This document shows positions 9,383 through 48,690 of a stretch of 64,000 nt of DNA, piece after piece; within the stretch, counting starts at the first letter, position 1; each line of letters opens with the position of its first letter. The translations under genes were made by a program, and so were the position numbers. The stretch is from Flavonifractor sp. An112. GTDB lineage: Bacteria; Bacillota; Clostridia; Oscillospirales; Oscillospiraceae. The notes beneath the pieces were generated by a model that saw only the letters and a program-made list of their open reading frames with translations, did no database searches and was not told the DNA's origin. The stretch spans positions 1 through 64,000 of the forward strand of contig NZ_NFLU01000002.1 in NCBI RefSeq assembly GCF_002161085.1, written 5' to 3'.

Positions 9383-10229
9383 TTACACTGCCCCCAGCAT
9401 CCTTGAGGCAGTGGCTGTCAGTAAACAAAGGCAGATTCCCAGCGCTGTTGGGATGACCACAGCCAGCACCGTCCATCTTACACTGCGTGTTTCCCGCGCG
9501 ATGGTTAGGCAGGTGGTGGAGCATGGCCAGTGGAACAGAGAAAACAGCATGGTACACAGTGCTGTGGTCCAAGTCCAGCCGTTTACCACCAACAGTTCCC
9601 GAAGAGCCTCAAGGCTTCCCGTATCTTGTAAGGTTCCAGTGGACAGATAGGACATGAGAATGATGGGGATCACAATCTCATTGGCAGGGAAGCCTAATAT
9701 AAAGGCCATCAAAATAGTGCCGTCCATGCCCAACAACCGGCCGAAGGGGTCCAGAAAACCAGTGCACCAGCCCAAGATGCTGGTTCCTCCTACAGTAATG
9801 TTGGCACATAGCCAGATCACCAAACCAGCGGGCGCGGCAACGGCGACCGCCCGCCCCAATACGAACAGCGTACGGTCCAGCACCGAACGTACCAGAATCT
9901 GCCCCACTCTGGGGCGGCGGTAGGGCGGCAGCTCCAGGGCGTAGGCCGACGGAATCCCCTTCAGCAACGTATTGGATAAGAGATGAGATATGCCGAAGGT
10001 CATAACCACGCCCAGCAGGATGGCCCCGGTGAGCAGCAGTGAGGATGCCATTCCCTGCCACAACCCTCCCGCCGTACCCACAAAAAACATGGTGATCAGA
10101 GCAATCAGGGTTGGAAATCGCCCATTGCATGGAACAAAACTGTTGGTAAGGATGGCAATCAGCCGTTCTCGGGGAGAATCGATGATGCGGCATCCCACTA
10201 CACCGGCGGCGTTGCATCCGAAACCCATA
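9383..10229 (-). pseudogene. feoB: feoB, C-terminal fragment (split by prophage)
   Basis: 281 codons from an internal ATG at 10228. They encode the second half of the FeoB permease: the Gate motif GFGCNAAGV at the very start, then ILTNSFVPCNGRFPTL and four to five hydrophobic helices. The frame rejoins the 429-residue N-terminal fragment (48680-49969) if the DNA between the two att cores is removed. No Shine-Dalgarno precedes the internal ATG and its upstream sequence is phage DNA, so this fragment is probably not translated in the lysogen. Bases 9278-9382 hold only the 3' flank. Confidence 0.93.
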
Positions 10230-10245
10230 CATATAGTATATATAA
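10220..10245. other. Left prophage attachment site (host/phage junction)
   Basis: The crossover dinucleotide is CA at 10230-10231 (TG on the feoB strand). To the left is feoB. To the right is phage, with the attP half-arm TAGTATATATAA at 10234-10245. Confidence 0.85.
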
Positions 10246-10251
10246 CAATGT

Positions 10252-10296
10252 AAACTCAAACAGCCCTCCGGAAAGTCCGAAGGGCTGTTTGAGTTT
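10252..10296 (-). terminator. Terminator after the phage lysis genes
   Basis: A 16-bp perfect outer stem (10252-10267 with 10281-10296) and an inner CGGA/TCCG pairing just past the holin stop. It ends the leftward late transcript before the feoB fragment. Confidence 0.75.
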
Positions 10297-10297
10297 A

Positions 10298-10765
10298 TCA
10301 TTCTTTAGATGACATATTGTCCCCCGCCTGATCTACCTTGGACTCCAATGCTGCGATCATTTTGGTGAGCCAGGACGGGATGGGCGCACCCAGGGCGCCG
10401 GCGTTCTCGATGATGGAACCGGCCTCGGTGAGGATGTACCAGATCACTACCAGGGGGCAGAGCAGCACCGTGTAAGTAAAAGGCAGCTCCACCCCCGGCA
10501 CATGGGCCAGCAGGTGACCGATGACCGTGTCCAGGATGGCAGCCACGATGACGGCCACCACGCTGCCCAGCTTGTGCCAGATTCCGTCCCGGGCTGACTT
10601 GCTGGACCACTCCCCTGCCCGCAGGGCTGCGGCGGAGCCGGTAGCATAGTCGATGATCATGCACCCAACCCAGGCCACCACCACCCAGCCAAACCAGCCC
10701 CACAGGGCAGTGAGCGCGGCGCACACGGCGGCCACCGCCGCCTTAAAGGTATTGATGTGCTCCAT
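10298..10765 (-). CDS. Phage holin (TcdE/holin-4 type)
   Basis: 155 residues from ATG 10765, with GGGAGG upstream; the longer frame has no ribosome site. Membrane helices lie at about residues 9-32, 62-80 and 95-115, and between them is a family-typical WVGCMIIDYATG segment. The C-terminus is charged and soluble. Holins of this family form membrane lesions that release the amidase. Its ATG follows one base after the amidase stop, so the two are translationally coupled as a lysis cassette. Confidence 0.85.
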   Translation of the reverse strand: MEHINTFKAAVAAVCAALTALWGWFGWVVVAWVGCMIIDYATGSAAALRAGEWSSKSARDGIWHKLGSVVAVIVAAILDTVIGHLLAHVPGVELPFTYTVLLCPLVVIWYILTEAGSIIENAGALGAPIPSWLTKMIAALESKVDQAGDNMSSKE

Positions 10766-10766
10766 G

Positions 10767-11522
10767 TCAGCCACCTCCCTCCGGCAGCAAGCCCAGCCGA
10801 TCCAGTACCAGGGAGGCCTGTTCCCGGGACAACGGTGCCTGGGGTGCGGTGCCATCAAACACGCCGGCGGCCTCCGCCTTCTCCCAGGCCTCCTGGGACC
10901 AGCTGCTGCTCTCTTTGCTGCGCTGCTGGGTAAGGTAGACCTCCATCATGGCATTGAACTGCTCCTGCGTCACTTCTTCCCCCTCCTCCAATCGTTTGTT
11001 GACCTCTGCCGCGATGTCCCCCTCCAGGGCATACAGGTAATCCCCAGGGCAGGCCTTGGCAGCAAAGTCCCGGTGGCAGGTCATGTTGCACCCACCCCGG
11101 TGATTTACCCGGTCGCTCTTGTTGTTGGACCACACCAGGCGCTTGATGCCGTTCCGCTTGCAGATGTCCGTCAGCAGGTCAATGAGAGCCGCCAGGGCCT
11201 GCTCGGTGACCTTATAGGGACTCACCGATTCGCTGGACACCTCAATGGTGATGGCCCGGTGGTCATTCTCCCGGTTAGAACTGCACCAGGACCGGTTGGC
11301 CTCCTCCACGCACAGGCCGATGCTCCCATCCTTCCCCACGGCGTAGTTGCAGGAATAGCCGTTTACAGGGTCGTGCTCGGTAAAACTGGGGAGGCCCAGA
11401 ATACTCTGAGCCGTCCCCTGTCCTGCCGTACAGTGGATGGTGATGGTATCAATGGCGTGATTCCGGGGCTTGTTGCAGTTGGGGGACAGCCTGGTGTAAG
11501 TCACCAGCGGGCTGTTACTCAT
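10767..11522 (-). CDS. Endolysin, N-acetylmuramoyl-L-alanine amidase (Amidase_2)
   Basis: 251 residues. The N-terminal amidase_2 domain has zinc ligands His in ITIHCTAG (about residue 30) and His in MTCHRDFAAKACPGDYLY (about 150), with the catalytic-site glutamate region TIEVSSES. The C-terminal 60 residues (SQEAWEKAEAAGVFDG) form a small helical module common on clostridial phage lysins, likely for wall binding. There is no signal peptide, which fits release through the holin encoded next. It cleaves the amide between MurNAc and L-Ala. Confidence 0.92.
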   Translation of the reverse strand: MSNSPLVTYTRLSPNCNKPRNHAIDTITIHCTAGQGTAQSILGLPSFTEHDPVNGYSCNYAVGKDGSIGLCVEEANRSWCSSNRENDHRAITIEVSSESVSPYKVTEQALAALIDLLTDICKRNGIKRLVWSNNKSDRVNHRGGCNMTCHRDFAAKACPGDYLYALEGDIAAEVNKRLEEGEEVTQEQFNAMMEVYLTQQRSKESSSWSQEAWEKAEAAGVFDGTAPQAPLSREQASLVLDRLGLLPEGGG

Positions 11523-11883
11523 TTCTGTCCTCCACCAGGGGCATGGGGGTGTACTCGGTCATGAGCCGCACCATGTCGTCATAGTCACCGGCTTCCCACA
11601 GCCTGCACAGGTCGGTATACCGCGCCTGACGCCGGGCATTCATGGCCGTCCAGGCCTGGGCAAAGGCATCCTCGCCCATAGCCTTTTCCCGGGCCTGCAG
11701 GGCGGCAAAGTCGGGGATGTACTTGGCGGGAATGCCCTCCACCGGGTCCACGGCCCTGCCATGGCGGATGTTGTTGCGGATCTTGGAGGCCGCCACGCTC
11801 AGGTCGGACACGCCGGTCTCCCGCCGGTCCATGGCCGCCCGGGCATAGATGGCGACTACCAGTTCATTCAGGTTCGTGTTCAT
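11515..11883 (-). CDS. Phage protein of unknown function (tail/lysis junction)
   Basis: 122 residues from ATG 11883, seven bases after AAGGAG. Helical, soluble and charged, with no domain I recognise. It overlaps the endolysin start by 8 bp and so is co-translated with it. The position after the XkdX-like gene and before lysis suggests a tail accessory or lysis-timing role, but nothing in the sequence proves it. Confidence 0.7.
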   Translation of the reverse strand: MNTNLNELVVAIYARAAMDRRETGVSDLSVAASKIRNNIRHGRAVDPVEGIPAKYIPDFAALQAREKAMGEDAFAQAWTAMNARRQARYTDLCRLWEAGDYDDMVRLMTEYTPMPLVEDRNE

Positions 11884-11911
11884 ATTTGTTCTCCTTTCCA
11901 TATTGCCACGC

Positions 11912-12046
11912 CTATTCAGCGTTGGGCTCCTGGGTGATCTCCCTGGCCTGGTCCTCCGTCAGCTTGCCTGCCGCCGCCAGGGCCTCGATCCGGGTTCTGT
12001 CCCACAGCTTGGGATAATACTTCTGGGCCAGTTCATATACGTTCAC
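11912..12046 (-). CDS. XkdX-like small phage protein
   Basis: 44 residues, GTG start at 12046 overlapping the stop of the preceding gene (CTGTGA). The sequence runs from MNVYELAQKYYPKLWD to GKLTEDQAREITQE. The YY.K.WD pattern and the C-terminal GK(L/I)TE.(Q/E)..EIT are typical of the XkdX family encoded at the end of PBSX-like tail operons. The function of the family is unknown. Confidence 0.7.
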   Translation of the reverse strand: MNVYELAQKYYPKLWDRTRIEALAAAGKLTEDQAREITQEPNAE

Positions 12047-12339
12047 AGTTCCACCCCCGTCATAATGGCCAGATAGTCCACGTCCGCCCGCAGCCGCTCC
12101 ATCTCCGTGGGCGCCTGCTCCGGCTCCTCCGCCGGTTCCGGCTTCTGCCCGGGGGTCAGGTCTACCAGCACGCCGTCCTCGATCTTCAGGTCACAGTAGC
12201 CGCAGCAGTCCCAGGCTGCCTTCTCCAACTGGGGCGGCACTGCGATCCACCCCTCCAGCCAGCACTCGGTCCGGTGGCTCTGGCTCTGCAGGCCGTGGCC
12301 TCCGTCCTCTCTAGCCGCGATCTCAATAATGGTCAACAT
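12043..12339 (-). CDS. Phage tail-associated protein, XkdW-like position
   Basis: 98 residues from ATG 12339, with AGGAGG upstream. The N-terminus holds MLTIIEIAARED and WIAVPPQLEKAAWD, the kind of short sequence found in genes just before xkdX. The C-terminus has a Pro/Glu linker and then a short helix that ends in the next start codon. Probably a tail-fibre accessory; assignment is by position and composition only. Confidence 0.6.
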   Translation of the reverse strand: MLTIIEIAAREDGGHGLQSQSHRTECWLEGWIAVPPQLEKAAWDCCGYCDLKIEDGVLVDLTPGQKPEPAEEPEQAPTEMERLRADVDYLAIMTGVEL

Positions 12340-13414
12340 CCAAATCCCTCCTGATCCATGCAAATAAGTGATACAACAGCTTGCGGATCCAGCTTGCCCG
12401 CTCCCGTCGGCCTCCCCCCTGCCCCTCCAGCCAGGCCAGCAGCTTTCCGGAGCTCCAGCCCTCCGTCCGGATCTCAGGCGCTTCTGTTCCTGCACCCACC
12501 GTCCGCACCTGACCGCCCCGCACAAAGCGCAGAAGCCGGTCCTTCAGGTGGATGGGCGCAGGCTTGGGGGTGGATTTGCTCCGCTTTTGGTAGGTCCGCT
12601 TCTCCCGTGGTCCCTCCTCCGGGGGCAGGTCGTTGAAGTGGGCCATGAGCCGCTCCTCCAGGCTGTCCAACCCCCGCACCTCCACCTGCTCCCCCAGAGC
12701 CAGGCTCTCCAGCCGCTTCAGGCCACACCGGATGGAGCGCAGCACCGAAGCGTGATCCACACCCAGCAGGGTGCCAATCTCCCGCAGGGAGAGCCACTCA
12801 CCATAGTAGAGGTACAGATAGGTCTGCTGCCGCTGAGTAAGCCGGTCCAGCACCATCTTCAGCACTTTCGGATCCCCCAGGTCCACCACCAGGGGGCCAC
12901 CTTCCTGGCGGCCCAGCAGCTGATAGATGGCCCTGGCATCCGCCTCGATGTGGCGCTGCCCCCGCTGGAGGGTGCGGCACACGGTGGAGCGGTTCTTCCC
13001 CGCATCCCGGGCCACTTGGGCCTGCCTCCTGCCCCCGTCGGTACCGGCCAGATAGGCCTCCTGGGTGGGGCTGATACCCGTCCGGGCCGCCCGAACAGCC
13101 AGGCGCATCTTGTCCTGCTCGGTGGGGCCCTCCGGGTCCTCGGCACTCTCCAGCTCTGCCCAGGTCTGGTACTGGAGCTTATCCCACTGCCAGCCCTCCA
13201 GCCCGGACCAGGTCCTGCCCCGGCTGATCTTGTGCCGGGGCATCAGCTCCCGCAGCTGCCGGGAGCAGTCCACCAGGTCCTCCCCGATCCGGGCCAGCTC
13301 CAGACGGATGGCCCGGGCCTCCCGGCCCTGGGCTTTCTCCAGCTGAGTCTGAAGGGCCGCCTTTTGTTCCCGCAGGGACTTGGCCTGGGCTTTGATCTCT
13401 CTGGCCTGGCTCAT
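12323..13414 (-). CDS. Coiled-coil protein with two helix-turn-helix regions, sigma-70 region 4-like
   Basis: 363 residues. Residues 1-60 form a Gln/Arg-rich coiled coil. TWSGLEGWQWDKLQYQTW (about 68-86) is a Trp repeat also seen in tail proteins of this phage. About 110-160 is a first HTH (AQVARDAGKNRSTVCRTL). About 185-235 is LTQRQQTYLYLYYGEWLS then LREIGTLLGVDHASVLRSI, a typical sigma region 4 HTH. The C-terminus is basic. It looks like a DNA-binding regulator, yet it lies among tail and lysis genes rather than early genes. It could act on late transcription or on the host; this is not provable here. Confidence 0.65.
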   Translation of the reverse strand: MSQAREIKAQAKSLREQKAALQTQLEKAQGREARAIRLELARIGEDLVDCSRQLRELMPRHKISRGRTWSGLEGWQWDKLQYQTWAELESAEDPEGPTEQDKMRLAVRAARTGISPTQEAYLAGTDGGRRQAQVARDAGKNRSTVCRTLQRGQRHIEADARAIYQLLGRQEGGPLVVDLGDPKVLKMVLDRLTQRQQTYLYLYYGEWLSLREIGTLLGVDHASVLRSIRCGLKRLESLALGEQVEVRGLDSLEERLMAHFNDLPPEEGPREKRTYQKRSKSTPKPAPIHLKDRLLRFVRGGQVRTVGAGTEAPEIRTEGWSSGKLLAWLEGQGGGRRERASWIRKLLYHLFAWIRRDLDVDHY

Positions 13415-13665
13415 TTTTTACTCATGTCCATGCGGGGCGCCCGGAGATTGGAGGTGGTATACGTCCCGTCCCTGGGCCGGGTGTAATATCCCTGGGTGAG
13501 CTGCCGCAGGTCCCGCATCTCCGCCAGCATCTGCCGCAGGAGCGCCAGCTCCCGGGCAGCGACGGAGTTTCCCTGTGCCGCCTGTTCCTGCCGGTCCTCA
13601 ATGGCCAGCCGCAGCCGCACAGCGGCCTCCCGATATTCCTCTGCCAATTCTGTCAGCTTGGCCAT
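13411..13665 (-). CDS. Small phage coiled-coil protein
   Basis: 84 residues from ATG 13665 (GGGGTGAGACG upstream). Residues 1-60 are a charged helix (LAEEYREAAVRLRLAIEDRQ), then a Tyr/Arg tail. Its stop overlaps the next start (AAATGA). The helical part resembles adaptor proteins next to phage regulators, but no family is recognised. Co-transcribed with the double-HTH gene. Confidence 0.6.
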   Translation of the reverse strand: MAKLTELAEEYREAAVRLRLAIEDRQEQAAQGNSVAARELALLRQMLAEMRDLRQLTQGYYTRPRDGTYTTSNLRAPRMDMSKK

Positions 13666-13669
13666 CGTC

Positions 13670-14317
13670 TCACCCCGCGTCCGGCTTTCCGATATGCTCA
13701 ATCTCGTACCAGGTCTTTCCCTCCAGGCCGCCCCAGGTATATCCCAGGGCCTCCAGCACGTCCCAGGTCGCTCCATACTTAAACACCAGGGCGGTGGAGC
13801 CGGTGGCCGACAGGGTCAGGCCCTCCTCTCCCACAGCAATCACCCGGATGGTGGCGGTGACCGACGTCTCCCCGTCTCCGTGGATGCGGATGCCGTCCAG
13901 GGCATCCTGGCCGTCAAAGCGGGTCATGCCCCCGGCAGGCTGATAGACCGCAGTCACCCCGGTGCCTGTCTGTACCGTCCATCCGGGGGCCTCCACGGTC
14001 AGTGTGGCAGCCCCATCCCCTGTGATCTCCACACGCAGCGCCCGGATCCTGCACAGGGCTGTGATGCTGCACATGCCGGTAAACTCAGCCACCTCACCGG
14101 GGCCAAAAAAGCCATAGGAGACGTCAAACTCCGGTGTCAGAGCCGCCTGGAAGACCTGCAGGGAGGTGTCACCCTGGGCGATACGCAGCACTTTGGGTAT
14201 CAGCGTCTGGAGGGATTCATCGGCGGTGGCCGATACTCCCATCCGGGTCAGATTCTCGGCCAGGTCATCCCGGAGCCCGCACAGCAGCGAGATATACGGC
14301 GTCAGGTTCCCACTCAC
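13670..14317 (-). CDS. Phage tail/baseplate-associated protein with C-terminal TWxxLE repeats
   Basis: 215 residues. The N-terminus is helical (YISLLCGLRDDLAENL), then a long beta-rich region typical of tail-fibre or upper-baseplate proteins. It ends with three Trp units: ATWDVLE, YTWGGLE, KTWYEIE. The same units occur at the end of the baseplate protein at 16164 and inside the gene at 12323. The exact function is unknown; a structural tail role is inferred from position. Confidence 0.65.
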   Translation of the reverse strand: MSGNLTPYISLLCGLRDDLAENLTRMGVSATADESLQTLIPKVLRIAQGDTSLQVFQAALTPEFDVSYGFFGPGEVAEFTGMCSITALCRIRALRVEITGDGAATLTVEAPGWTVQTGTGVTAVYQPAGGMTRFDGQDALDGIRIHGDGETSVTATIRVIAVGEEGLTLSATGSTALVFKYGATWDVLEALGYTWGGLEGKTWYEIEHIGKPDAG

Positions 14318-14631
14318 GACGGCACCCCCACCACCTGCTCCAGCAGCTCAGCCAGGCCATCCAGGGCCTCGACGCAGCTGGCCGCATTGGCCACAGCCTC
14401 GTCCAGCTCAGCGCCTGTGCAGGCCAGCTCATATTCGGTTGCCATACTATCCCTCCTCACCGCCAGGCGTTTTCCATCCCGCAGCCGGGCAAAGGCGCCG
14501 CCCGGCAGGATCACCCTGGCGCTGTCCGTTGCCTGGACGCGCACCGCGATCCGCCCACCCACTTCCACCGGGTTGGGCAGAATGGAGACCGCCAGGATCA
14601 CCGGGGAAAACCGGTCCGCCATACCGCTCAC
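14314..14631 (-). CDS. Tail-fibre-like small protein with Ig-like half domain
   Basis: 105 residues. The N-terminal 40 (ILPNPVEVGGRIAVRVQATD) is a near copy of the last 25 residues of the Ig-repeat protein at 15264. The C-terminus (TGAELDEAVANAAS) matches the short helical motif found near the ends of many phage tail fibres. Start at 14631 or the ATG three codons later. Likely a receptor-binding or baseplate appendage subunit. Confidence 0.55.
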   Translation of the reverse strand: MSGMADRFSPVILAVSILPNPVEVGGRIAVRVQATDSARVILPGGAFARLRDGKRLAVRRDSMATEYELACTGAELDEAVANAASCVEALDGLAELLEQVVGVPS

Positions 14632-14632
14632 C

Positions 14633-14899
14633 TCACTTGCCCACCTGGATGGAGACCCGCTTTTTGATGACCTCGGTACCCACCGAGAAGGTCACCGTCA
14701 GTTGATACAGACCGGTGGTTTTGGGCTCCACCTCCACCCGGAGGTTGTGATCCACGATCTCAGCCACGCCCTCCTCCAAGGTGCCGCCGCCCTCCAGGCG
14801 CCAGGTGGCGTCCCGGATGGTAAAGGCGTCACTGTCCCGGATGGTAACCTGCAGCGTCAGCCGCCGGCGTTCCCCCAGCAGCATTCTGAACTCCTGCAC
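14633..14899 (-). CDS. Phage beta-sandwich structural protein
   Basis: 88 residues, all beta by appearance (LTLQVTIRDSDAFTIRDATW; YQLTVTFSVGTEVIKKRV), similar to a single Ig-like module. It sits tightly between two other small tail genes, so is probably part of the same fibre or baseplate-periphery assembly. No family is recognised. Confidence 0.6.
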   Translation of the reverse strand: MQEFRMLLGERRRLTLQVTIRDSDAFTIRDATWRLEGGGTLEEGVAEIVDHNLRVEVEPKTTGLYQLTVTFSVGTEVIKKRVSIQVGK

Positions 14900-14905
14900 C
14901 GAAAC

Positions 14906-15271
14906 TCACCTCCCACACAGCTGGCAGCGGATCAGCTCCACCGCGACCTCATGGAGATCCACCGTGATCCCCACCGGATCCGGCAGCAGCCGGGCAGAGA
15001 TCTCACGCCGGGACAGCACCGCCGCCACCTGATCCGTGGACCAGTCCGCGCCCACCTCCAGCAGCTGCACCCTGCAGCACAGCTGGGTGATGTCGTAAGT
15101 CATGAGGATGGAGCAAAAATAGCTGCGGTTGCCCGCGTCATCCTCTGCCCACAGGGCTACGGTATACTCCCCGGTGGGCCTGGAGGGGACTGTGGTTTCC
15201 CACAGCCCCTCCTGACCCTGCCGGAGCAGGATCTCCGCGCCGTCACAGCTGCCCCAGATCCGCTTAATCAT
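14906..15271 (-). CDS. Phage structural protein, Ig-like N-terminus
   Basis: 121 residues. The first 60 form an Ig-like unit (GEYTVALWAEDDAGNRSYF), the pattern seen in bacterial adhesion repeats. The second half is helical with three Cys, and its end CQLC is a possible metal pair. It overlaps the end of the Ig-repeat gene upstream by 8 bp. A tail appendage by context; function is not known. Confidence 0.6.
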   Translation of the reverse strand: MIKRIWGSCDGAEILLRQGQEGLWETTVPSRPTGEYTVALWAEDDAGNRSYFCSILMTYDITQLCCRVQLLEVGADWSTDQVAAVLSRREISARLLPDPVGITVDLHEVAVELIRCQLCGR

Positions 15272-16145
15272 CGGTAGCCTTGACCCGCAGGACGAAGGTG
15301 GCGCCGCAGTCCACGGGGTTGGGCGTCATGGATACGCTGATGAATACAGGGGCGTTGGTATCCAGATAGACGGTGCGGGTGATGACGGTCTGCTTGCCCG
15401 CCGCATCGGTGGCCTTGACGGTGATCCGGTTCTCACCCTCGGTCAGGGTGACCTGGGTGGAGAAGGTACCGCCCTCGTCCACCACCACCGGGGTATCGTT
15501 GACCGTCAGCGTGACGGGGCCGGAAGTCACATCGTTGGTCTCGCCGCTGACCACCAGCTTGCTGTTGTTGGTCTTGAAGCCCTCCACAGGCGCCGTGACA
15601 TTCAGGGTCGGCGGCACGGTATCCGTGGTGAAGGTGACGGAAGCCTGCTGGGCGGCGTTGCCGTCGTGGTCCGCAGCGTCCGCCGTAATGGTGTGGGGGC
15701 CGTCCTCCAGGCCGGACGCGGAAGCGGTGAACAGATACCCGCCGTCTGTGGCCTCGCCGGATGCCTCCAGCGGTGCGCCGTCCACCTTGATCACCACAGT
15801 GTCAGGATCCACCCCGGAATCGTTATCTGTGATCTTGACCGTGACCACGGGCGCAGCCGTGCCAAGATGAGCGTCCGCGGTGGGAGACGTAATGGTAATG
15901 ACCGGGGCCTCCCGCTCCTTGGCCTGCAGGCGCAGCTGCGTGCCAAACGTCGAATGGTCATCGTCAATGGTGGTGGAGTTGCCGCCTTCGTCGGTGGCGG
16001 TGAGCTCCACAGGGTAATAGTGCCCCTCCTGGTTATAGCTGGACAGCGCAGGGGCCTGGATCTGTACCACCCAGTCGCCGCTGCCCTCTTCCTGGGTCAG
16101 CTGATAGGTCTGGCCGTTGATCCTGGCCGTCATGGTTTTGATCAT
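15264..16145 (-). CDS. Ig-like repeat tail protein
   Basis: 293 residues from ATG 16145 (GGGAGGG six bases upstream). It has at least three Ig-like units: APVITITSPTADAHLG.., PPTLNVTAPVEGF.. and APVFISVSMTPNPVD.., with linkers rich in D/N/T. Repeats of this type occur on tail and head surfaces, where they bind glycans weakly. The last unit stops half-way (VKATDD), and a matching half unit opens the gene at 14631. Likely a baseplate or fibre surface protein. Confidence 0.75.
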   Translation of the reverse strand: MIKTMTARINGQTYQLTQEEGSGDWVVQIQAPALSSYNQEGHYYPVELTATDEGGNSTTIDDDHSTFGTQLRLQAKEREAPVITITSPTADAHLGTAAPVVTVKITDNDSGVDPDTVVIKVDGAPLEASGEATDGGYLFTASASGLEDGPHTITADAADHDGNAAQQASVTFTTDTVPPTLNVTAPVEGFKTNNSKLVVSGETNDVTSGPVTLTVNDTPVVVDEGGTFSTQVTLTEGENRITVKATDAAGKQTVITRTVYLDTNAPVFISVSMTPNPVDCGATFVLRVKATDD

Positions 16146-16163
16146 GTGTTTCCCTCCCAAATA

Positions 16164-16742
16164 TCAGGTTGTTTTCGGGTGACAATAAAAAAGCAGTTCA
16201 AAATGCCCCCAGGTAGGGAACTGCTCCTCCATCCCTGCCCAGGTGAGTGCCGCTTCCTCCAGGTCTCCCCAGGTGATGGGGCTGATGACAAATTCCAGAT
16301 GGGCCGGCTTCACCAGCTCCACCGAATCCCGGAGCAGTTTGGCATCAATGCGGATAAATCCCCTCTCATCCCCGTAAAAGGCCAGGGAAAAGGTGTATTC
16401 AGAGAAATGTTCTGTGACCTTTACGTCGTAGCCCGTCAAAGCCTTGGCCATGGACTCGATGAGGGCCGCGTTGGCGGTGCCGCCGGCGCACAGCTGGGCC
16501 ACCACCGCCTGCCGCCGCTCCTCCAGGGTGGCTCCCTGGGCGGGGGTGCGACCGGTGAGCCGTTCCCACTCCGTCAGCCCGGCCTCATTGGCCGTGTGGG
16601 CGTAGAACTCCAGATAGAGCTGCCTGGCCCCCTCCAGCAGTTCCTGGGACAGATCTGCCATGGGGTCGGACACTCCGGCGGTATAGGGGCTGTCCAGCAG
16701 CCGCCGGGGCAGCCGCTCCAGCACATCACGGGCACCCATCAC
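16164..16742 (-). CDS. Baseplate protein, XkdU/YmfQ family (DUF2313)
   Basis: 192 residues. The N-terminus carries the family-typical RDVLERLPRRLLDSPYTAG. The centre has ..LTEWERLTGR.., then HLEFVISPITWGDLE. It follows the baseplate J gene by a 4-bp overlap, as xkdT-xkdU do in PBSX. The family is an essential baseplate wedge component in Mu- and PBSX-like phages. The C-terminal Trp repeats (ITWGDLE, LTWAGME, PTWGHFE) are shared with two downstream proteins. Confidence 0.82.
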   Translation of the reverse strand: MMGARDVLERLPRRLLDSPYTAGVSDPMADLSQELLEGARQLYLEFYAHTANEAGLTEWERLTGRTPAQGATLEERRQAVVAQLCAGGTANAALIESMAKALTGYDVKVTEHFSEYTFSLAFYGDERGFIRIDAKLLRDSVELVKPAHLEFVISPITWGDLEEAALTWAGMEEQFPTWGHFELLFYCHPKTT

Positions 16743-39875: not shown

Positions 39876-40020
39876 GCGTTTCCTCCTCCAGAGCCTGGAC
39901 CGCCAGAGTCAGCACCTGGGCCACCTGCAGGTGATCCACTGGGAAGCTGCTGGCCCGTGCCAGGGCCTCCCGGCGCAGGATCTCCAACCGCAGAAGCTGG
40001 GCCGCTCTGGTATTGTCCAT
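39832..40020 (-). CDS. Small helical phage protein
   Basis: 62 residues from ATG 40020, with GGAGA upstream. Helix AAQLLRLEILRREALARA, then a second VAQVLTLAVQALEEE. It is encoded within the 3' end of the helicase frame in another register. Its clean ribosome site supports it. Unknown function. Confidence 0.6.
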   Translation of the reverse strand: MDNTRAAQLLRLEILRREALARASSFPVDHLQVAQVLTLAVQALEEETHEDRREDHLDPVGL

Positions 40021-42146: not shown

Positions 42147-42160
42147 ACTTCCCAACCCCC

Positions 42161-42189
42161 TTGTAAAATCCGGCCATTTGTGGTATAAT
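42161..42189 (+). promoter_or_regulatory. Promoter of the predicted small RNA
   Basis: TTGTAA (42161-42166), 17-bp spacer, TATAAT (42184-42189). It points opposite to the replication genes. The start site is predicted at about 42194-42197. Confidence 0.65.
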
Positions 42190-42193
42190 AATT

Positions 42194-42264
42194 ATGGTTT
42201 TCATGCACGAAACCATCGTTTGGCCTCTCTGTCTGCGCCCACAGACAGGGGGGCCTTTCTTTTT
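42194..42264 (+). ncRNA. Predicted antisense-type small RNA targeting the parA start
   Basis: About 70 nt bounded by the promoter at 42161 and a terminator: a 14-bp stem with two G-U pairs (42222-42235 with 42242-42255), then TTTCTTTTT. The 5' part forms a 7-bp stem (42194-42200 with 42210-42216) with loop TCATGCACG. Bases 42196-42213 are identical to 39653-39670 on the plus strand, that is, perfectly complementary to 18 nt of parA mRNA covering its start codon. There is no ORF or ribosome site. An operator shared by both places is the alternative reading. Confidence 0.6.
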
Positions 42265-42266
42265 GC

Positions 42267-42449
42267 CTAATCATGAGACGCACCCCGCTCTCTCTGTTCC
42301 CGGATGGCGCGTCCATCCCGGATAAATCCCAGGATCATCCGCAGCACATCATCCGGCAGAGTATGGGTCTCAAGGTATGTACTCAGATCCTCACAGATAG
42401 AGCCATCCGCCATGATATTGGTTACCTTGACCTTGCTCATATCGACCAT
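42267..42449 (-). CDS. Small conserved-type phage protein
   Basis: 60 residues from ATG 42449, with AGGAGG upstream. KVTNIMADGSICEDLSTYLE and THTLPDDVLRMILGFIRDGR form a short beta-then-helix protein seen widely in clostridial prophages. Function unknown. It overlaps no other gene and is followed by the sRNA locus on the opposite strand. Confidence 0.7.
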   Translation of the reverse strand: MVDMSKVKVTNIMADGSICEDLSTYLETHTLPDDVLRMILGFIRDGRAIREQRERGASHD

Positions 42450-42493
42450 TGCGCGCCACCTCCTTTTTCCATTTATGCTGCCGCCGGGTTGTC

Positions 42494-42943
42494 CTATGAG
42501 GACTCCCGGGCACACCGCAGCTCCAGCGCGGCCTCCACGATCTCCTGTAGGTCCTCCAGGATGGCATCGAACTCGGGCCGCTCCCCGTCATCGATGACGT
42601 TGTCCTCCGCGATCCGCAGCAGCCGCCGGTCGGCATGGGACTCTGCAAAAGCAAAGATCCGGTTGGTCAGCTTGGCGCTGGCCTCCAGTACGGATCTGGG
42701 CCGGATCTCCGGCACTACGCTCTTGTACAGGTCATCAGTCTCTTGTAGATGCTGCAAGGCCAAATACACGGCATTGTAAAGGATCGCCATCAGCCGCACC
42801 ACTTGATTGGGCGGAATCCGCTGGCCGGTCTCATAGGCCCGCAGGCTCTCCACGCTGATGCCCAGCCGCTCCGCTGCCGCTTCCTGGGTCAACCCGGCAG
42901 ACTTGCGGCAAATTTTATAGATATTCCGGCAATCGTCCAGCAT
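42494..42943 (-). CDS. XRE-type helix-turn-helix regulator
   Basis: 149 residues. The N-terminal XRE domain RKSAGLTQEAAAERLGISVE with SLRAYETGQRIPP is followed by a helical C-terminal domain (NAVYLALQHLQETDDLY ..). It lies at the start of the leftward replication operon and may control it. Larger than a Cro protein; perhaps an activator or second repressor. Confidence 0.82.
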   Translation of the reverse strand: MLDDCRNIYKICRKSAGLTQEAAAERLGISVESLRAYETGQRIPPNQVVRLMAILYNAVYLALQHLQETDDLYKSVVPEIRPRSVLEASAKLTNRIFAFAESHADRRLLRIAEDNVIDDGERPEFDAILEDLQEIVEAALELRCARESS

Positions 42944-42982
42944 GGTTATCTCCTCCTCTTCAGGATAAAATGGATCTGGGGA

Positions 42983-43192
42983 TCAGCTGGCGTCCCGCTC
43001 CTCCAGACCGTCCCGGCCATAGAGGGCGTCGATGGAGCAGTTCAGCAGGTCAGCCAGAGCGGGTAGCTTGTCCGCGCTGGGGTTGGCCTGCCCGTTTGCC
43101 CACTTGGAAACTGCATTGCTGGATACATTCAGTGCCGCCGCCACCTGAATTCCCTGGAGCCCCCTCGACTCCATGAGTTCTCTGATTTTCAA
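42983..43192 (-). CDS. Cro-like XRE repressor
   Basis: About 69 residues if translation starts at TTG 43192, close behind GGGGGGAGG; a TTG at 43225 would add 11 residues but lacks a ribosome site. HTH: LQGIQVAAALNVSSNAVSKW followed by ANGQANPSADKL. It is divergent from the plus-strand gene at 43275 and shares its control region. Likely a Cro/CI-type switch protein. Confidence 0.78.
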   Translation of the reverse strand: MKIRELMESRGLQGIQVAAALNVSSNAVSKWANGQANPSADKLPALADLLNCSIDALYGRDGLEERDAS

Positions 43193-43216
43193 CTTCCTCC
43201 CCCCTTCACTTTGGCC

Positions 43217-43245
43217 TTGTTCCAAACTGTTCGATATGGTATGAT
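43217..43245 (+). promoter_or_regulatory. Rightward promoter between cro-like gene and 43275 gene
   Basis: TTGTTC (43217-43222), 17-bp spacer, TATGAT (43240-43245), 30 bp before the GTG start at 43275. Confidence 0.55.
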
Positions 43246-43274
43246 TTAGCTATAGGTTTATTGAGGTGATGGGT

Positions 43275-43627
43275 GTGGGAAACATCTCAAGCGTTGATGA
43301 CATCGAGCTGTCCTCTTCAGAGCTCAAAGTGCTCCGAACCATCTTAAGGCAGGGAGCTACATCAGATGAACCTCTGCTACACGACATAGAACCCTATCCT
43401 TACCTGTATCGGACCGGACTAATAGAGCGGTTCTGCTCAGATGAATTTTCCTATGAGACCGTGCCGAACTGTCTATCCCCTTGAACGCAATTCGTGTGAG
43501 TGACTTAGGTCGTATGTACCTGGCACGTACTTCTCGGATCAATGGTGAGAATCGCCTGTCACTGTCACTGTCCGCTGTTGCGGTCCTCATTTCCCTTGCT
43601 GCTTTCATACGTTCCTTCTTCCCGTGA
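43275..43627 (+). pseudogene. Winged-helix-like membrane-tail protein, frameshifted
   Basis: GTG 43275 follows GAGGTGAT at five bases. The first frame (ELSSSELKVLRTILRQG .. YLYRTGLIERFCSDEF) ends at TGA after CLSP, at a CCCC run (43477-43480). In the -1 frame the protein continues NAIRVSDLGRMYLARTS to a C-terminal membrane helix (LSLSLSAVAVLISLAAFI) and stops at 43627. One added C would restore about 117 codons. Mutation, sequencing error or slippage cannot be told apart here. Confidence 0.55.
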
Positions 43628-43774
43628 ATCTGACGCCGTTGACTCAGGTATACGGAATACGCCTGTGCACATCGGGAGCAGGATACATTCCTCTCCCGTG
43701 TACCGTTCAAGTTCCTTCTTTAAATTCTCTTTTACTTCTCCAAACAGGTCACACGAGAATGAAAATAAAAGCAT
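43565..43774 (-). CDS. First gene of the leftward lytic transcript, small unknown protein
   Basis: 69 residues, ATG 43774 nine bases after AAGGGGGG. MLLFSFSCDLFGEVKENLKK then ELERYTGEECILLPMCTG. It begins about 48 bases after the predicted start of the strong leftward promoter at 43829. It overlaps the end of the frameshifted plus-strand gene by 63 bp. No family recognised. Confidence 0.6.
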   Translation of the reverse strand: MLLFSFSCDLFGEVKENLKKELERYTGEECILLPMCTGVFRIPESTASDSREEGTYESSKGNEDRNSGQ

Positions 43775-43828
43775 TTTAGTTTTCCCCCCTTCCTGATTTC
43801 CGGTAAACCTGTGGTTTGCTACGGGTTA

Positions 43829-43857
43829 ATCATAGTTCTGATTTTTGTAATTGTCAA
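43829..43857 (-). promoter_or_regulatory. Strong leftward (lytic) promoter
   Basis: On the minus strand: TTGACA (complement of 43852-43857), 17-bp spacer, TATGAT (complement of 43829-43834). The -35 lies within the 19-bp operator at 43845-43863. Confidence 0.82.
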
Positions 43858-43863
43858 TTACAA
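43845..43863. promoter_or_regulatory. Repressor operator (19-bp perfect dyad)
   Basis: TTGTAATTGTCAATTACAA: 9-bp arms around one base, covering the -35 of the leftward promoter. Binding would block lytic transcription. Confidence 0.75.
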
Positions 43864-43917
43864 AATATATATTTCGCAATTATCGTTTATCTGCACAATG
43901 CCTTACCATTATAAAAG

Positions 43918-43931
43918 AAATTGTGCAATTT
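43918..43931. promoter_or_regulatory. Second operator-like dyad before the repressor gene
   Basis: AAATTGTGCAATTT, with the same CAATT/AATTG half-site as the first operator, 18 bp before the repressor ATG. This suits autoregulation. Confidence 0.5.
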
Positions 43932-43948
43932 GTTAGGAGGATACGCCA

Positions 43949-44278
43949 ATGGATATTGTGGACAGAATCTTTCTATTGGTCGATAAGATATATCCTGAAC
44001 AACGTCAATTTGCAGAGGATTTGGGTATTCCTGCTCCTAGAATCAGCGAATGGAGAAGAAGAAAATCCACGTCTTACAATAAACGGCTTTCCCAAATTGC
44101 TGCTGTTTTGAATACTTCTGTGGAATACCTCCTGACTGGTAACGAAAGAACGCCCGTCGGCCTATCGGCCAACGGGCGTGAAGAGAAATTCGTCCAGTTG
44201 TTCAGCCAGCTCACGCCGGATCAGCAGGAGCTTGTTCTTGCTCAGCTAAAAGGGATCGTAGACGCGAAAGATAAATAA
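43949..44278 (+). CDS. CI-like XRE repressor
   Basis: 109 residues; AGGAGG eight bases before the ATG. HTH: RQFAEDLGIPAPRISEWRRR and TSVEYLLTG, a typical XRE domain, then a short C-terminal tail LFSQLTPDQQELVLAQLKGI, probably for oligomerisation. There is no LexA-like autocleavage domain. It is divergent from the lytic promoter and has dyads on both sides, so it is the best candidate for the lysogeny repressor. Its AT-rich DNA differs from the neighbours. Confidence 0.85.
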   Translation: MDIVDRIFLLVDKIYPEQRQFAEDLGIPAPRISEWRRRKSTSYNKRLSQIAAVLNTSVEYLLTGNERTPVGLSANGREEKFVQLFSQLTPDQQELVLAQLKGIVDAKDK

Positions 44279-44345
44279 GCTGCTGCTCCTCGGAGAGCTG
44301 TCGGAACAGTTCCAGCGCCTCAGTCATGATGTCATTCTGTACCAT
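44211..44345 (-). CDS. Mini-protein antisense to the repressor 3' end
   Basis: 44 residues, ATG 44345 about seven bases after GAAGGGGG. The core LFRQLSEEQQLIYLSRLRSL mirrors the repressor tail LFSQLTPDQQELVLAQLKGI in pattern, although it is encoded on the other strand; the two genes overlap tail to tail by 68 bp. It might heterodimerise with the repressor. Short and unproven, but the ribosome site is good. Confidence 0.45.
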   Translation of the reverse strand: MVQNDIMTEALELFRQLSEEQQLIYLSRLRSLLAEQEQAPADPA

Positions 44346-44485
44346 GAACAGACCCCCTTCCAAAAAGTATCGTTCACCTATAGGTAGAACAGGCCTGTTT
44401 GTTGTACGTTTTGGTACACCGAAGGAAGAAATTTGTCGAAAAAAATTTGATCCTAGGCCAGACACATAAAAGGAGTGCAATTATT

Positions 44486-45361
44486 ATGAAAAAAATAGTT
44501 CCCCCTTTGCTGACTCTTTCAATGCTCATAGCTTTATCTGCCTGCTCATCCGGGAACAATTCGACAGTAAATCCCAGCACTGCTTTACCATCCGAAAGTC
44601 TTGTCCCTGAGAAAAGCGCAAATAGTTCCGAAATAAGCAACCTGAGTATAGATGCTTACTCTTGGAACTATGATACAAATGAAGATTATCTTGTAACCTG
44701 TGAGGGATCATATTCCGGCGAAGTAGTTGATGGTGTACCAAACGGTTATGGTAGATTCGACTCTCAAAACGACTCCGGAGACACCTGGTACTATGAGGGA
44801 TACTTCAAAAATGGCCGATTCGATGGACAGGGCGGCGTTTATTGGTCTGATGGTTATTCTGAAGTAGGTACCTATATTGATGGTGCCTTTCGTCCAACAT
44901 ATCCGGAAATCCTTGAGTATTACTCAAAGTATGACGCCATCACATTTAACATGAATTCTTCCAGCAAGTCATTTGTTGAAGAACATCCGGATCTCTTTCC
45001 CGCCACAACAGAACAGGCCTCTACTGAAGTTGATGCACTGATTGATCCCTCTATCGGATACCCCCAGATTGAAAAGAGCCTGACCAGCGTCCAGGGCAAA
45101 CTATGTCTAAGAGAAAATGCATACGTAATTCAGGTTGGGGAGATTAACGAACGAGGAAGCGTGATCACTACCCTACTTGTTGGAGATGAAAATGGAGATT
45201 ATTTTTATATCATCTACAATGGTTCCCTTCCTGATGTCTATTCAGATATGTACATAGATTTCGTGGGATTACCCATTGCTATCACTTCTTTTGATAACAT
45301 TGGCGGAGGAGTAACCAACACCGCAGTCATTGCTGGAAGTTCTGTCCTTTTTGTTGAATAA
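44486..45361 (+). CDS. Lipoprotein with MORN-like repeats (lysogenic conversion candidate)
   Basis: 291 residues from ATG 44486 (AAGGAG ten bases before). Lipobox ALSACSSG, then a Ser/Asn linker. GSYSGEVVDGVPNGYGRF, WYYEGYFKNGRFDGQG and SEVGTYIDGAF are MORN-type repeats. The C-terminal 110 residues are a beta domain with no family. Expressed from the repressor side, so probably active in the lysogen and displayed on the cell surface. Upstream 44346-44485 holds two short palindromes (44376-44385, 44388-44399) but no clear promoter. Confidence 0.8.
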   Translation: MKKIVPPLLTLSMLIALSACSSGNNSTVNPSTALPSESLVPEKSANSSEISNLSIDAYSWNYDTNEDYLVTCEGSYSGEVVDGVPNGYGRFDSQNDSGDTWYYEGYFKNGRFDGQGGVYWSDGYSEVGTYIDGAFRPTYPEILEYYSKYDAITFNMNSSSKSFVEEHPDLFPATTEQASTEVDALIDPSIGYPQIEKSLTSVQGKLCLRENAYVIQVGEINERGSVITTLLVGDENGDYFYIIYNGSLPDVYSDMYIDFVGLPIAITSFDNIGGGVTNTAVIAGSSVLFVE

Positions 45362-45464
45362 TTTCACTAAGCGAAAAGTGAAAGGACATCTTTCCTGACT
45401 GGATACCAAGTGATAGGAAACATGGATATCCAGACTAATCATGAGGAATGAGAAGTAAGTCATT

Positions 45465-46094
45465 ATGAAAAAGTTATTGACAATTTTTCTCTGCTGCCTG
45501 ATGCTGACACCCCTGGCGGCCTGCGGAGGCAATGACACCTCCGCTACCCCGTCTCCCAGTCCAACAGTAGCGATACAAACTTTACCTCTGAGCGGAGAGC
45601 CTGTTGCTGGAATCTCCGTAGACACCACAGTCAATGAGTCTTCGTCCTGTGTAGACGTCACTATCTCCAATACAACAGAAGCAGATACATTATTCTCCGG
45701 CAACATTTCCGTACGCATGATGGACCGTTCCGGAAATATGGTCGGCAGCAAAACCTTCTTTGTAGAGGACATGGCTGCTGGAGCTGTGATTACAGGCAGC
45801 ATTCCCGTCAGCTCCACCGACGATCTCGGGGCAGAGTTTGGGGTCACAAATGACGTATTTGCCGCTCCCACGCCTACACCTACTCCTGAGCCTACGCCCA
45901 CGCCTGTGGCCACCCCAGCTCCAGTACAGTCAGTAGGCCAATTTGTAGGCAGCACAGAGTCGGATAAGTACCACTACCCGACCTGTCGCCATGCCAAGAA
46001 GATCTCCGGCGCCAACGAGATCTGGTTCACCAGCGCGGCAGATGCCCAATCCCACGGCTATACGGCCTGTAAAGTCTGCGACCCGCCGTCCTGA
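45465..46094 (+). CDS. Lipoprotein with C-terminal Ada-like metal-binding domain
   Basis: 209 residues. Lipobox PLAACGGN; an Ig-like middle (VDTTVNESSSCVDVTISNTT); a Thr-Pro linker with TPTPTPEPTPTP; and a C-terminus GSTESDKYHYPTCRHAKKIS .. ADAQSHGYTACKVC, the four-Cys/His Ada-type fold also found on secreted nucleases. Surface-anchored and probably expressed in the lysogen. A terminator follows. Function unknown. Confidence 0.8.
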   Translation: MKKLLTIFLCCLMLTPLAACGGNDTSATPSPSPTVAIQTLPLSGEPVAGISVDTTVNESSSCVDVTISNTTEADTLFSGNISVRMMDRSGNMVGSKTFFVEDMAAGAVITGSIPVSSTDDLGAEFGVTNDVFAAPTPTPTPEPTPTPVATPAPVQSVGQFVGSTESDKYHYPTCRHAKKISGANEIWFTSAADAQSHGYTACKVCDPPS

Positions 46095-46107
46095 TAACAA
46101 CACAAAA

Positions 46108-46135
46108 GCCGGGGCTCACGCCCCGGCCTCTTAAA
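46108..46135 (+). terminator. Terminator after the second lipoprotein gene
   Basis: GCCGGGGC-TCAC-GCCCCGGC (46108-46127), followed by CTCTT. The rest of 46136-46209 shows no gene. Confidence 0.65.
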
Positions 46136-46209
46136 ACGCCAAGAATCGAACATTTGTATTGTTCCGGTTCCTTAGTTGCAAAAAAGCCCCAACTTATCAG
46201 CTGAGGATT

Positions 46210-46824
46210 TTAATGTAAGTACTTCAACAGCTGGATCAGGTGTGTACCGCTCATTTCCGTACGCTCATCCTTATCCAGCTTTCGCTTTCCAAATTCCACA
46301 TACCCATTGTCACTATAGAATGACCTCAGACGATCAACGTCTTCACACTCCAGGTATACCACCTTGCCTCCGATGATTCGCTGAGCAAGCCGAATCTGAT
46401 CTTCAGCCATTTTCAACAGCTCGTCACCAGTAATCAGTTTATTATAGTCGTTGGTGTAATTCTTACCGAGTTGAGCAACCAGCGGAGCCATAATTACCAA
46501 ATCATTTTTAGCCGCACTTGGCATTGCAAATTTTCTTAAGCGTCTACCAAGTGTGCCGGAAACAGAGTGCTTATTCACTACAATATACTTGTTGGCAATC
46601 GTAAAATATCCGCAAATGACATTTTCCTTCCGGTAAGACGCATATACCAAAAAGGTCTGAGAAATCCCCTGCTTCGCGAAATCGATTGCAGATCTCTTTG
46701 TCAGAAACCGCTCAACATCCCCGTTCTTTGGACACGAAAAGGAGGAGAGGATCTCCCGACAGAAATCCTCTCCCTTTTCTTCTATGATGTCGCTGAGGGA
46801 CAGTATCGAATAACCTGCCATCAT
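46210..46824 (-). CDS. GNAT-like acetyltransferase, toxin candidate
   Basis: 204 residues. GNAT-like core: TFLVYASYRKENVICGYFTI, NDLVIMAPLVAQLGKNYTND, DQIRLAQRIIGGKVVYLECE and VDRLRSFYSDNGYVEFGKRK. Its ATG overlaps the stop of the 57-residue gene upstream (ATGA), the arrangement of an antitoxin-toxin pair. GNAT toxins acetylate aminoacyl-tRNA; this activity is inferred. Other options are protein acetylation or defence. Confidence 0.75.
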   Translation of the reverse strand: MMAGYSILSLSDIIEEKGEDFCREILSSFSCPKNGDVERFLTKRSAIDFAKQGISQTFLVYASYRKENVICGYFTIANKYIVVNKHSVSGTLGRRLRKFAMPSAAKNDLVIMAPLVAQLGKNYTNDYNKLITGDELLKMAEDQIRLAQRIIGGKVVYLECEDVDRLRSFYSDNGYVEFGKRKLDKDERTEMSGTHLIQLLKYLH

Positions 46825-46994
46825 TTATCTCCAAAAAAATCTTTGATTTTATCCTTCTGGATAGTCTGGCACGTTCTGGATATTCGGACCTCTTTGCTCT
46901 TTTTTCCCTTTGCGTGCTCAAGTGCTGTAGCAAAACCGCGGCATAGCGACTTGTCCCGGAAGCGGACATCTTTCAGGATGCTCTTTGTAGCCAT
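46821..46994 (-). CDS. Small antitoxin-like partner of the GNAT protein
   Basis: 57 residues from ATG 46994, with AAGGAGG seven bases upstream. Sequence MATKSILKDVRFRDKSLCRG, then ALEHAKGKKSKEVRIS and a C-terminus KDKIKDFFGDK. Basic with alternating helix and strand, like small DNA-binding antitoxins. Coupled to the GNAT gene by a 4-bp overlap. Confidence 0.7.
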   Translation of the reverse strand: MATKSILKDVRFRDKSLCRGFATALEHAKGKKSKEVRISRTCQTIQKDKIKDFFGDK

Positions 46995-47025
46995 AACCGC
47001 ACCTCCTTTACTATGCTACGCTTAT

Positions 47026-47031
47026 ATTATA
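47026..47031 (-). promoter_or_regulatory. Extended -10 of the GNAT/antitoxin operon
   Basis: On the minus strand TGC-TATAAT (TATAAT is the complement of 47026-47031), about 32 bp upstream of the ATG at 46994. No good -35, as expected with an extended -10. Between here and 47249 is non-coding; the integrase promoter is not clear. Confidence 0.5.
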
Positions 47032-47249
47032 GCAGCAGAATAGCCAAAAAAACACTGGGAAATTCTACGAAGTTCTTGTTAGCTTATTGTTGACTTTTTT
47101 AATCACACTATTTCAATGATGGCATTTGACGCTGTCCCTCACTTATGGTGTAACATTACTAAAAGTTGCACATTGAGATACACCCAAGTTCAAAATCTTT
47201 TAAAGACGCCAAATATAGACCATTGATATTAAGATAAGGAGGACGCCTC

Positions 47250-48650
47250 ATGTCCAAGGACAAAATGATGGTATTCGGCTACGCCAGAGTCTCCACCGAG
47301 AACCAGCTGGAGAACTACTCCATCGAGGAGCAGACCGCTCGGCTGGAGTCCTATTGTGCCGCCAAGGGATGGGTGCTGCTGCACACCTATATAGACGGAG
47401 GATACTCCGGTGGGAACACAGACCGGCCTGCCCTTCAGACCATGCTGGCGCAGATCCGGGAGACCCATGTAGACGCTGTAGTGGTTTACAAGCTGGACCG
47501 GCTCAGCCGCTCCCAGAAGGATACCCTCACCCTCATCGAGGACGAGCTGCTGGCCCATGGCACTGATTTTGTCTCCATCAATGAGAACTTCGACACCTCT
47601 ACACCCTTCGGCCGGGCCATGATCGGAATACTGTCCGTCTTTGCCCAGTTGGAGAAGGATCAAATCACCGAGCGCTTTACCATGGGCCGGATCGGCCGGG
47701 GCAAGGCCGGATACTTCCACGGCGGCGGCAACGCACCCACCGGCTATACCTATGCGGACGGGCTTCTTACCGTCAATGAGTACGAGGCTATACAGGTCCG
47801 GGAGGCCTTTGACCTCTTCCTGGCCGGGAAGTCCATCAACGCAATCTGGCATATTTTATCCACAAAGTACACCACAAAGTGGACAGCTGCAAAGGTCCGC
47901 AACGTGCTGAAGAACAGTCTCTATATCGGGAAGGTCCATTTCATGGGGCAAGAGTATGATGGAATACATCAGCCCATTGTGGAGAAGCGTGTCTTTACCG
48001 CCGCCAATCAGCTGCTCAACAGCCTGTCCCGTGAGGCGGCAAAAACAACATCCCAGCGCAACCCTTTCCGGGCGGGTTACCTGCTCTCAGGTCTGCTGTA
48101 CTGCGGCCGCTGCGGAGCCCGGTACTCAGCCAACCATGGATATTACAAATGCTATTCCAGAGCCAAAAGCAGCCCTAAATTCGTCCGTGACCCGGACTGC
48201 AAAAATGACAACTGGGAGATCAGCACATTGGATCACTTGGTATGTCAGCAGGTGGATGCGATGGTCTCTAGCTCCGCTGCCGTAGATCACGCGATTATGG
48301 CTGCCGACGCCGCCAAGACGGTGCATATTGACAAGGATAAACTGCGCCGTACCTGTGCGGAGCTGGAGCGGCAGATCGAGCGTCTGATCGAGCTGTATCA
48401 GGTCGGCTCCATTCCCATGGCATCTATCACCCAGCGGGTCAACGATCTGTCGGCACAAAAGGCTGCGCTGGAATCGCAGCTTAACGCTCCGGATGAGGTG
48501 CCCGCCAAAGATCTGTTTCTTGCTGCCGTAGAGGACTACCGGCAGGGCTTTGCCGATGGGGACACAGACCGCAAGCGTGCGCTGCTGTCCGGCCTTTTGG
48601 ATCGGATAACCATTGACGGCCAGTCGATCCAGCTCCACTGGAGGCTGTAA
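47250..48650 (+). CDS. Large serine integrase
   Basis: 466 residues; AAGGAGG seven bases before the ATG. Catalytic domain 8-150: nucleophile Ser in FGYARVSTENQ, VVYKLDRLSRSQKD, STPFGRAMIGILSVFAQLEK. Recombinase domain to about 270, then the zinc ribbon CGRCGARYSANHGYYKC, then a coiled coil (LERQIERLIELYQVG) that controls directionality. It lies 16 bp from the right attachment half-arm. It should recombine the attB in feoB with the attP reconstructed here; excision needs a directionality factor not identified in this window. Confidence 0.97.
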   Translation: MSKDKMMVFGYARVSTENQLENYSIEEQTARLESYCAAKGWVLLHTYIDGGYSGGNTDRPALQTMLAQIRETHVDAVVVYKLDRLSRSQKDTLTLIEDELLAHGTDFVSINENFDTSTPFGRAMIGILSVFAQLEKDQITERFTMGRIGRGKAGYFHGGGNAPTGYTYADGLLTVNEYEAIQVREAFDLFLAGKSINAIWHILSTKYTTKWTAAKVRNVLKNSLYIGKVHFMGQEYDGIHQPIVEKRVFTAANQLLNSLSREAAKTTSQRNPFRAGYLLSGLLYCGRCGARYSANHGYYKCYSRAKSSPKFVRDPDCKNDNWEISTLDHLVCQQVDAMVSSSAAVDHAIMAADAAKTVHIDKDKLRRTCAELERQIERLIELYQVGSIPMASITQRVNDLSAQKAALESQLNAPDEVPAKDLFLAAVEDYRQGFADGDTDRKRALLSGLLDRITIDGQSIQLHWRL

Positions 48651-48666
48651 GCAGTAATTTGCAAAA

Positions 48667-48690
48667 TTATATATACTACTCACATGGTCA
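48667..48690. other. Right prophage attachment site (phage/host junction)
   Basis: The phage half-arm TTATATATACTA (48667-48678), then CT, then the crossover CA at 48681-48682, then feoB sequence CATGGTCAGG. Joined with the left site, the arms give a perfect 12-bp inverted repeat centred on CA. Confidence 0.88.

Follow-up and report, generated by a model that had tools for sequence, protein, structure and literature searches.

The Listeria phage A118 splits comK and can restore it, and comK/A118 and sigK/skin serve as the models of active lysogeny. The sigK case is treated in these terms in the literature (PMC5025042), and diverse large serine recombinases have been reported to share one conserved coding site in a prolyl isomerase gene, with the Mg-chelatase gene as another frequent integrase target (Durrant et al., 2022; PMC10083194). 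The locus analyzed here lies on a 297-kb contig of Flavonifractor sp. An112 (NZ_NFLU01000002.1), within its first 64 kb (these 64,000 nucleotides are hereafter ‘the window’), where a prophage of ~38.4 kb (10232..48680) splits one of three paralogues of feoB. This element is very probably a temperate contractile-tailed phage that was integrated site-specifically by its own large serine integrase at an attachment site (attB) within feoB. The best solved-structure matches of this integrase are the TP901-1 catalytic domain and the C-terminal part of the A118 integrase, and the order of domains is the same, but its target is feoB, unlike those of A118 and TP901-1. Likewise, the feoB case and the recombinase clusters of Durrant et al. 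(2022) have in common that diverse large serine recombinases act at one coding site, and differ in the target gene. The main text of that paper contains none of the words feoB, ferrous and iron, though feoB may be in its supplements. No description of a prophage or integrase insertion in feoB was found in the literature on feoB integration sites and lysogens, Flavonifractor prophage integrases, integrase targets and active lysogeny, supplements being outside the scope of this search. The general kind of event is known from the parts of the literature covered, and the feoB integrase clade was not found described there. The mechanism is an ordinary one, and a first-pass annotation of the window was right about the site and the crossover; the phenomenon is broader than it said.

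The two pieces of the broken feoB gene flank the prophage, both on the reverse strand. The N-terminal piece (429 aa; 48680..49969) contains the G domain, the cytosolic helices (FeoB_N and FeoB_Cyto) and the start of the first Gate domain, and the C-terminal piece (281 aa; 9383..10228) contains Gate stretches and FeoB_C, which places the cut inside the first Gate domain. The predicted crossover dinucleotide, CA on the forward strand and TG on the feoB strand, is found at 48681..48682 in the junction on the integrase side and at 10230..10231 in the far junction. When the pieces are rejoined at the shared CA, the frame stays open for 711 residues and then reaches a stop, as the first-pass annotation had calculated. 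Its further statement that the pieces rejoin only if the crossover is at CA was stronger than the window by itself warrants: the idea of a single frame-keeping join is ruled out, because many other joins leave an open frame, and it is the relatives that decide. The comparison with prophage-free relatives that it had proposed was run, and the predicted joint, TM-C-MGFGC, appears as TM-C-MG(F/L)GC in all 11 congeners with feoB unbroken across the region. Since these unbroken congeners carry the predicted Met-Cys-Met joint, the attB proposed earlier is right, and it is centred on the TG with which the Cys codon of Met-Cys-Met begins, immediately ahead of a conserved GFGCN motif. The N-terminal piece ends, as had also been noted, in a TGA formed by the core TG plus one phage A, and the same stop is present in a second congener (G002; here and below, G numbers denote genomes and L numbers loci). 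Neither of the host's two other feoB genes, which are of other sequence types, has the Met-Cys-Met target. A second copy of the target in this genome was also considered and rejected: one other 12-bp copy lies on contig C1, a frequency at chance level, as a control pattern also has one.

Joining the two phage ends yields a predicted phage attachment site (attP) composed of the half that adjoins the integrase gene (P arm, 48657..48680, forward strand) and the other half (P′ arm, 10232..10255, forward strand). As anticipated from the window, this site has perfect arms of 12 bp each and CA exactly midway between them, so that a two-base crossover falls at the middle of symmetric sites. When 14 positions on each side of CA are compared, 12 of 14 are complementary. 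Agreement at this level arose in 3 of 400,000 pairs when prophage segments were drawn at random, in 52 of 400,000 when the segments were AT-rich and in 136 of 200,000 shuffles of the arms, and on these three tests a chance origin of the arms is rejected. A one-piece attP of the predicted design was found directly after a related integrase gene in 11 integrase-bearing contigs, seven viral and four from genomes (L078, L081-L084, L088, L094, L101, L104, L109 and L124), with CA at the centre in eight and TG in three; eight of the 11 pass a cut-off of 14 complementary positions out of 18, and three below it (L078, L084 and L109, with 12-13 of 18) were counted as attP by eye. The predicted integration site, crossover, attB and attP are thus supported both by unbroken relatives and by one-piece attPs. 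In L124 (~5371-6320), the one-piece attP follows the integrase gene, and the same end sequence recurs ~950 bp further on, before a feoB C-terminal piece; this locus is a tandem or satellite insertion.

The integrase gene (47250..48650, forward strand) encodes 466 aa with Resolvase, Recombinase and zinc ribbon (Zn_ribbon_recom) domains, all three above the Pfam cut-offs. Ser15, which we take to be the catalytic serine, is invariant across 17 aligned integrases. With that alignment as query, a genome-collection scan found 125 relatives, the best 80 of which were analyzed. Among these 80, 54 share at least 47% identity with the window integrase, and 44 of the 54 adjoin a feoB gene broken at this site, 28 beside the C-terminal piece and 16 beside the N-terminal piece, which means that both orientations occur. 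At 43 of these 44 sites, the junction shows TG either adjoining the second Met codon or following the first. The other ten close relatives comprise four with a one-piece attP, one whose sequence ends at the integrase and five that are elsewhere or unplaced. None of the 26 more distant integrases among the best 80 is at this site, and two of the 26 end at the integrase. By integrase, the nearest named assemblies are Flavonifractor. In a 95-row integrase tree built by a quick method, all 48 rows from this site fall within one 69-row group (Shimodaira-Hasegawa-like approximate likelihood ratio test support 99), with many changes of orientation among them. Ten loci (near-copies and one cut short) were left out of this tree by choice, and two (L094, with a frameshifted integrase, and L220, with an in-frame stop) were dropped by a length rule; L155, which the script had assigned to this site, was moved by hand because it is unbroken here and has its integrase at a third site (see below). 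Contig data and identities indicate that L098, L099 and L100 are the same cases as G002, G015 and G010. The window integrase can accordingly be assigned to a clade that, as judged from these genomes, is devoted to this feoB site in many Clostridia. Relatives of the integrase occur in 112 of 50,697 phage records, all <60% identical and mostly from phages of Streptococcus, Lactococcus and Listeria; the best identity among the 15 matches listed is 41.6%.

Comparison within the genus and family indicates how often this gene is occupied. The feoB gene is present in 19 of the 20 genomes of the genus sample; it is broken at this site in four (the genome of the window, G002, G015 and G010), broken 38-40 codons further on in another four (G001, G005, G011 and G014) and unbroken at both sites in 11, one of which (G008) ends at a contig end ~60 codons into the C-terminal part. 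The four genomes broken only downstream have the same Met-Cys-Met joint as their congeners in three cases and Ser for Cys in one (G001). At this site, G015 and G010 carry integrases that are 90% and 81% identical to that of the window, in the opposite orientation and with core TG, and a genome of another genus (G222) has a 74% identical integrase at the same feoB site. The scan that turned up G222 scored at most five candidates per genome, so its count of 15 in 300 genomes is a lower bound. When a 121-aa probe across the site was used on the 300 genomes of the family sample, the gene was found in at least 146, unbroken here in at least 137 and broken in at least nine. Two of the nine broken cases listed, the window genome and G222, have integrases of the window clade; the other seven have a different recombinase.

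This second type of recombinase acts at the same codons and contains DUF4368 in six of the seven cases, in one of which (G121) it is split into two open reading frames; no DUF4368 was found in the recombinase of the seventh (G260), and for G235 the view is of the C-side junction only. These TndX-like, DUF4368-bearing proteins are ~22-28% identical to the window integrase, and in two of their elements (L208 and L214) the centre, placed by eye from arm symmetry, seems to lie 2 bp upstream, on the TG of ATG. A second site of insertion in feoB lies ~38 codons downstream, near a PCNGRFP motif, and is the one broken in the four congeners mentioned above. The second-site elements examined (G001, G005 and G014; loci L065, L066 and L067) are each ~7 kb and encode a serine recombinase and a large protein; the latter is 1067-1255 aa long and has a BlaR1-type M56 domain and weak BNR-like repeats. 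A third site, seen from one side only, apparently lies at around residue 375 of the N-terminal piece and would be used by two more distant integrases (L153 and L155). Two kinds of element may even share one gene: G222 (L061-L063, L221 and L222) has a single feoB in which a prophage occupies the first site and the second holds a ~35 kb element that resembles an integrative and conjugative element (ICE), with conjugation genes (coupling protein, TraG, RepA_N and ParB) and its own recombinase. Other small elements in feoB carry single genes (L107, L128 and L208; an HDOD/EAL protein, a sodium:solute symporter and a glutamate-type dehydrogenase), and L127 has, on one strand (5387-7539), a feoB C-terminal piece followed by a Met-Cys-Met feoB N-terminal piece. 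Because relatives of the integrase use the same spot in many gut bacteria, feoB looks like a recurrent, shared docking site for mobile DNA in these organisms.

A property of the target may account for its repeated use. Met-Cys-Met is encoded as ATG TGY ATG, and so exists in two DNA forms, each nearly palindromic about the central TG; we propose that the integrase clade keeps to this site because the protein motif can be written in these two near-palindromic ways. Since Met and Cys codons offer little room for synonymous change, drift of that kind would hardly harm the target. ATGTGYATG is present in 24 of the 30 best-scoring unbroken genes of the family (L178-L207), and five of the 30 have an Ala codon for Cys. 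Within the probe region (121 codons), the 12-nt stretches with the highest conservation are those ~10 bp upstream of the second site (0.922) and at the first site (0.917). Such a codon lock is a plausible way for the target to be kept, and feoB alleles with an Ala codon, or with a Ser codon as in G001, which are without the TG core, might resist integration.

The gene content of the prophage is that of a temperate contractile-tailed phage, with terminase, portal, head, sheath, tape measure, baseplate, lysis, repressor and integrase genes, and PHROGs matches were obtained for 19 of the 20 prophage open reading frames submitted. On the reverse strand these matches include, in order of position, a holin (10298..10858), an endolysin (10767..11522), a baseplate wedge protein (16739..17827), a tail tape measure-like protein (20278..22347), a tail sheath (23398..24480), the major head protein (26598..27794), the portal protein (28463..29758) and the terminase large subunit (29986..31803). 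Pfam identifies an HTH_3 regulator (42494..42943, reverse strand) and a CI-type, repressor-like helix-turn-helix protein (43949..44278, forward strand). A product encoded at 33213-34013 is a replication-initiation protein that weakly matches a family of rolling-circle initiators, and the prophage also has DnaD-like, helicase and ParA-like genes. The G222 prophage, from the other genus, has portal, sheath, tape measure, tail and baseplate proteins that are 38-47% identical to those of the window over 86-99% of their length; for its terminase and head protein the match is partial. Outside the prophage, a feoA gene (FeoA domain by Pfam; 49960..50271, reverse strand) is directly upstream of feoB.

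At the level of sequence, predicted site-specific integration is supported by four observations: both junctions, the unbroken gene in relatives, a symmetric attP centred on the crossover, and a clade of integrases at the same codon. An assembly artefact or a chance likeness at the junctions has a negligible probability, as both junctions are on one 297-kb contig and the same architecture recurs in other assemblies. Several points nevertheless weigh against this reading. No directionality factor was identified in the prophage, whose excision and viability as a phage are putative. A search of IMG/VR for the arm pattern of this phage gave two matches, neither with an integrase match in the available stretch, and no free copy. 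Five of the 54 close integrases (L108, L115, L123, L140 and L143) are elsewhere or unplaced, and at one of the 44 occupied sites (L121) the TG core is absent from the junction. As to the codon lock, the association is a correlation within 121 codons, and stretches with no known role as targets, at probe residues 7 and 43, are almost equally conserved (0.911 and 0.908).

Under site-specific phage integration, residence would cost the host one of its three FeoB proteins, and excision, with a putative directionality factor, would restore feoB exactly; what this means for the cell can be read in two ways. The first-pass annotation held that lysogeny removes FeoB, which stands for this one paralogue and fails for the host overall, as its genome contains two further feoB genes whose open frames encode 825 and 804 aa. 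These two paralogues are among the reasons why a simple insertional loss is the probable explanation, one in which a redundant feoB is a tolerated, widely shared parking place and excision is phage escape, with any effect on iron incidental. The gene is moreover common, being present in the at least 146 of 300 family genomes given above, and its three sites are used by different elements. What weighs against this explanation is the state of the halves, which show no decay in the cases examined, though recent insertion alone could explain the window case. A lysogeny-linked switch, or active lysogeny, in which the element would leave feoB under some condition without cell death and this FeoB would be made only then, is on balance unlikely, the two open paralogues of the host counting against it, notwithstanding several observations that agree with it. 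The architecture and the unbroken relatives indicate that a host gene is split, and the predicted restoration is exact and in frame. Both halves in the window are open, with ratios of nonsynonymous to synonymous substitution rates (dN/dS) of 0.064 (N-terminal) and 0.037 (C-terminal) relative to the unbroken gene of G006; a recent insertion would account for this constraint as well.

Small elements in related genomes bear more closely on the question of a switch. In four of these (L151, L152, L159 and L160), feoB contains elements of 2.7-3.6 kb that consist of an integrase gene and a GH25 muramidase gene; they may be reduced prophages that selection has maintained. At silent sites, the divergence of their integrase and GH25 genes is about that of the surrounding feoB halves, which have dN/dS of 0.06-0.19 and no stops, as expected under purifying selection, and in the genus of L152 the gene was found in eight of 24 genomes at the search threshold and is broken here in five of those eight. 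These elements are the best, though indirect, support for a switch. Against this, silent sites are saturated, and the feoB tree, in which several forks stay open, unites three of the four carriers at a support of 86/90, which is moderate; since it does not make the four carriers one clade, separate late insertions could also have produced the pattern. The fifth broken gene of that genus (G325) is accompanied by an integrase gene bearing an in-frame stop, and at least two further uninterrupted FeoB matches (29-39% identity) are present in all six of the small-element genomes searched. A more far-reaching proposal would be that Met-Cys-Met FeoB is a programmed-interruption gene of Clostridia, which a dedicated integrase clade, partly reduced to integrase and muramidase elements, keeps split in most cells, with excision restoring it whenever the cell requires a third and special route for Fe(II); we regard this, too, as unlikely.

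The choice between insertional loss and a switch is directly testable, as lysogens, unbroken relatives and small resident elements coexist in related gut anaerobes. The analysis also yields a family of integrases, attB sites and attP sites represented by dozens of natural cases, and offers a testable explanation for the persistence of a protein motif as a DNA target, namely that its codons have almost no synonymous freedom. The larger point, beyond that of the first-pass annotation, is that the prophage of Flavonifractor sp. An112 is one case of a recurrent target, with one gene, feoB, docking prophages, an ICE-like element and small transposon-like elements.

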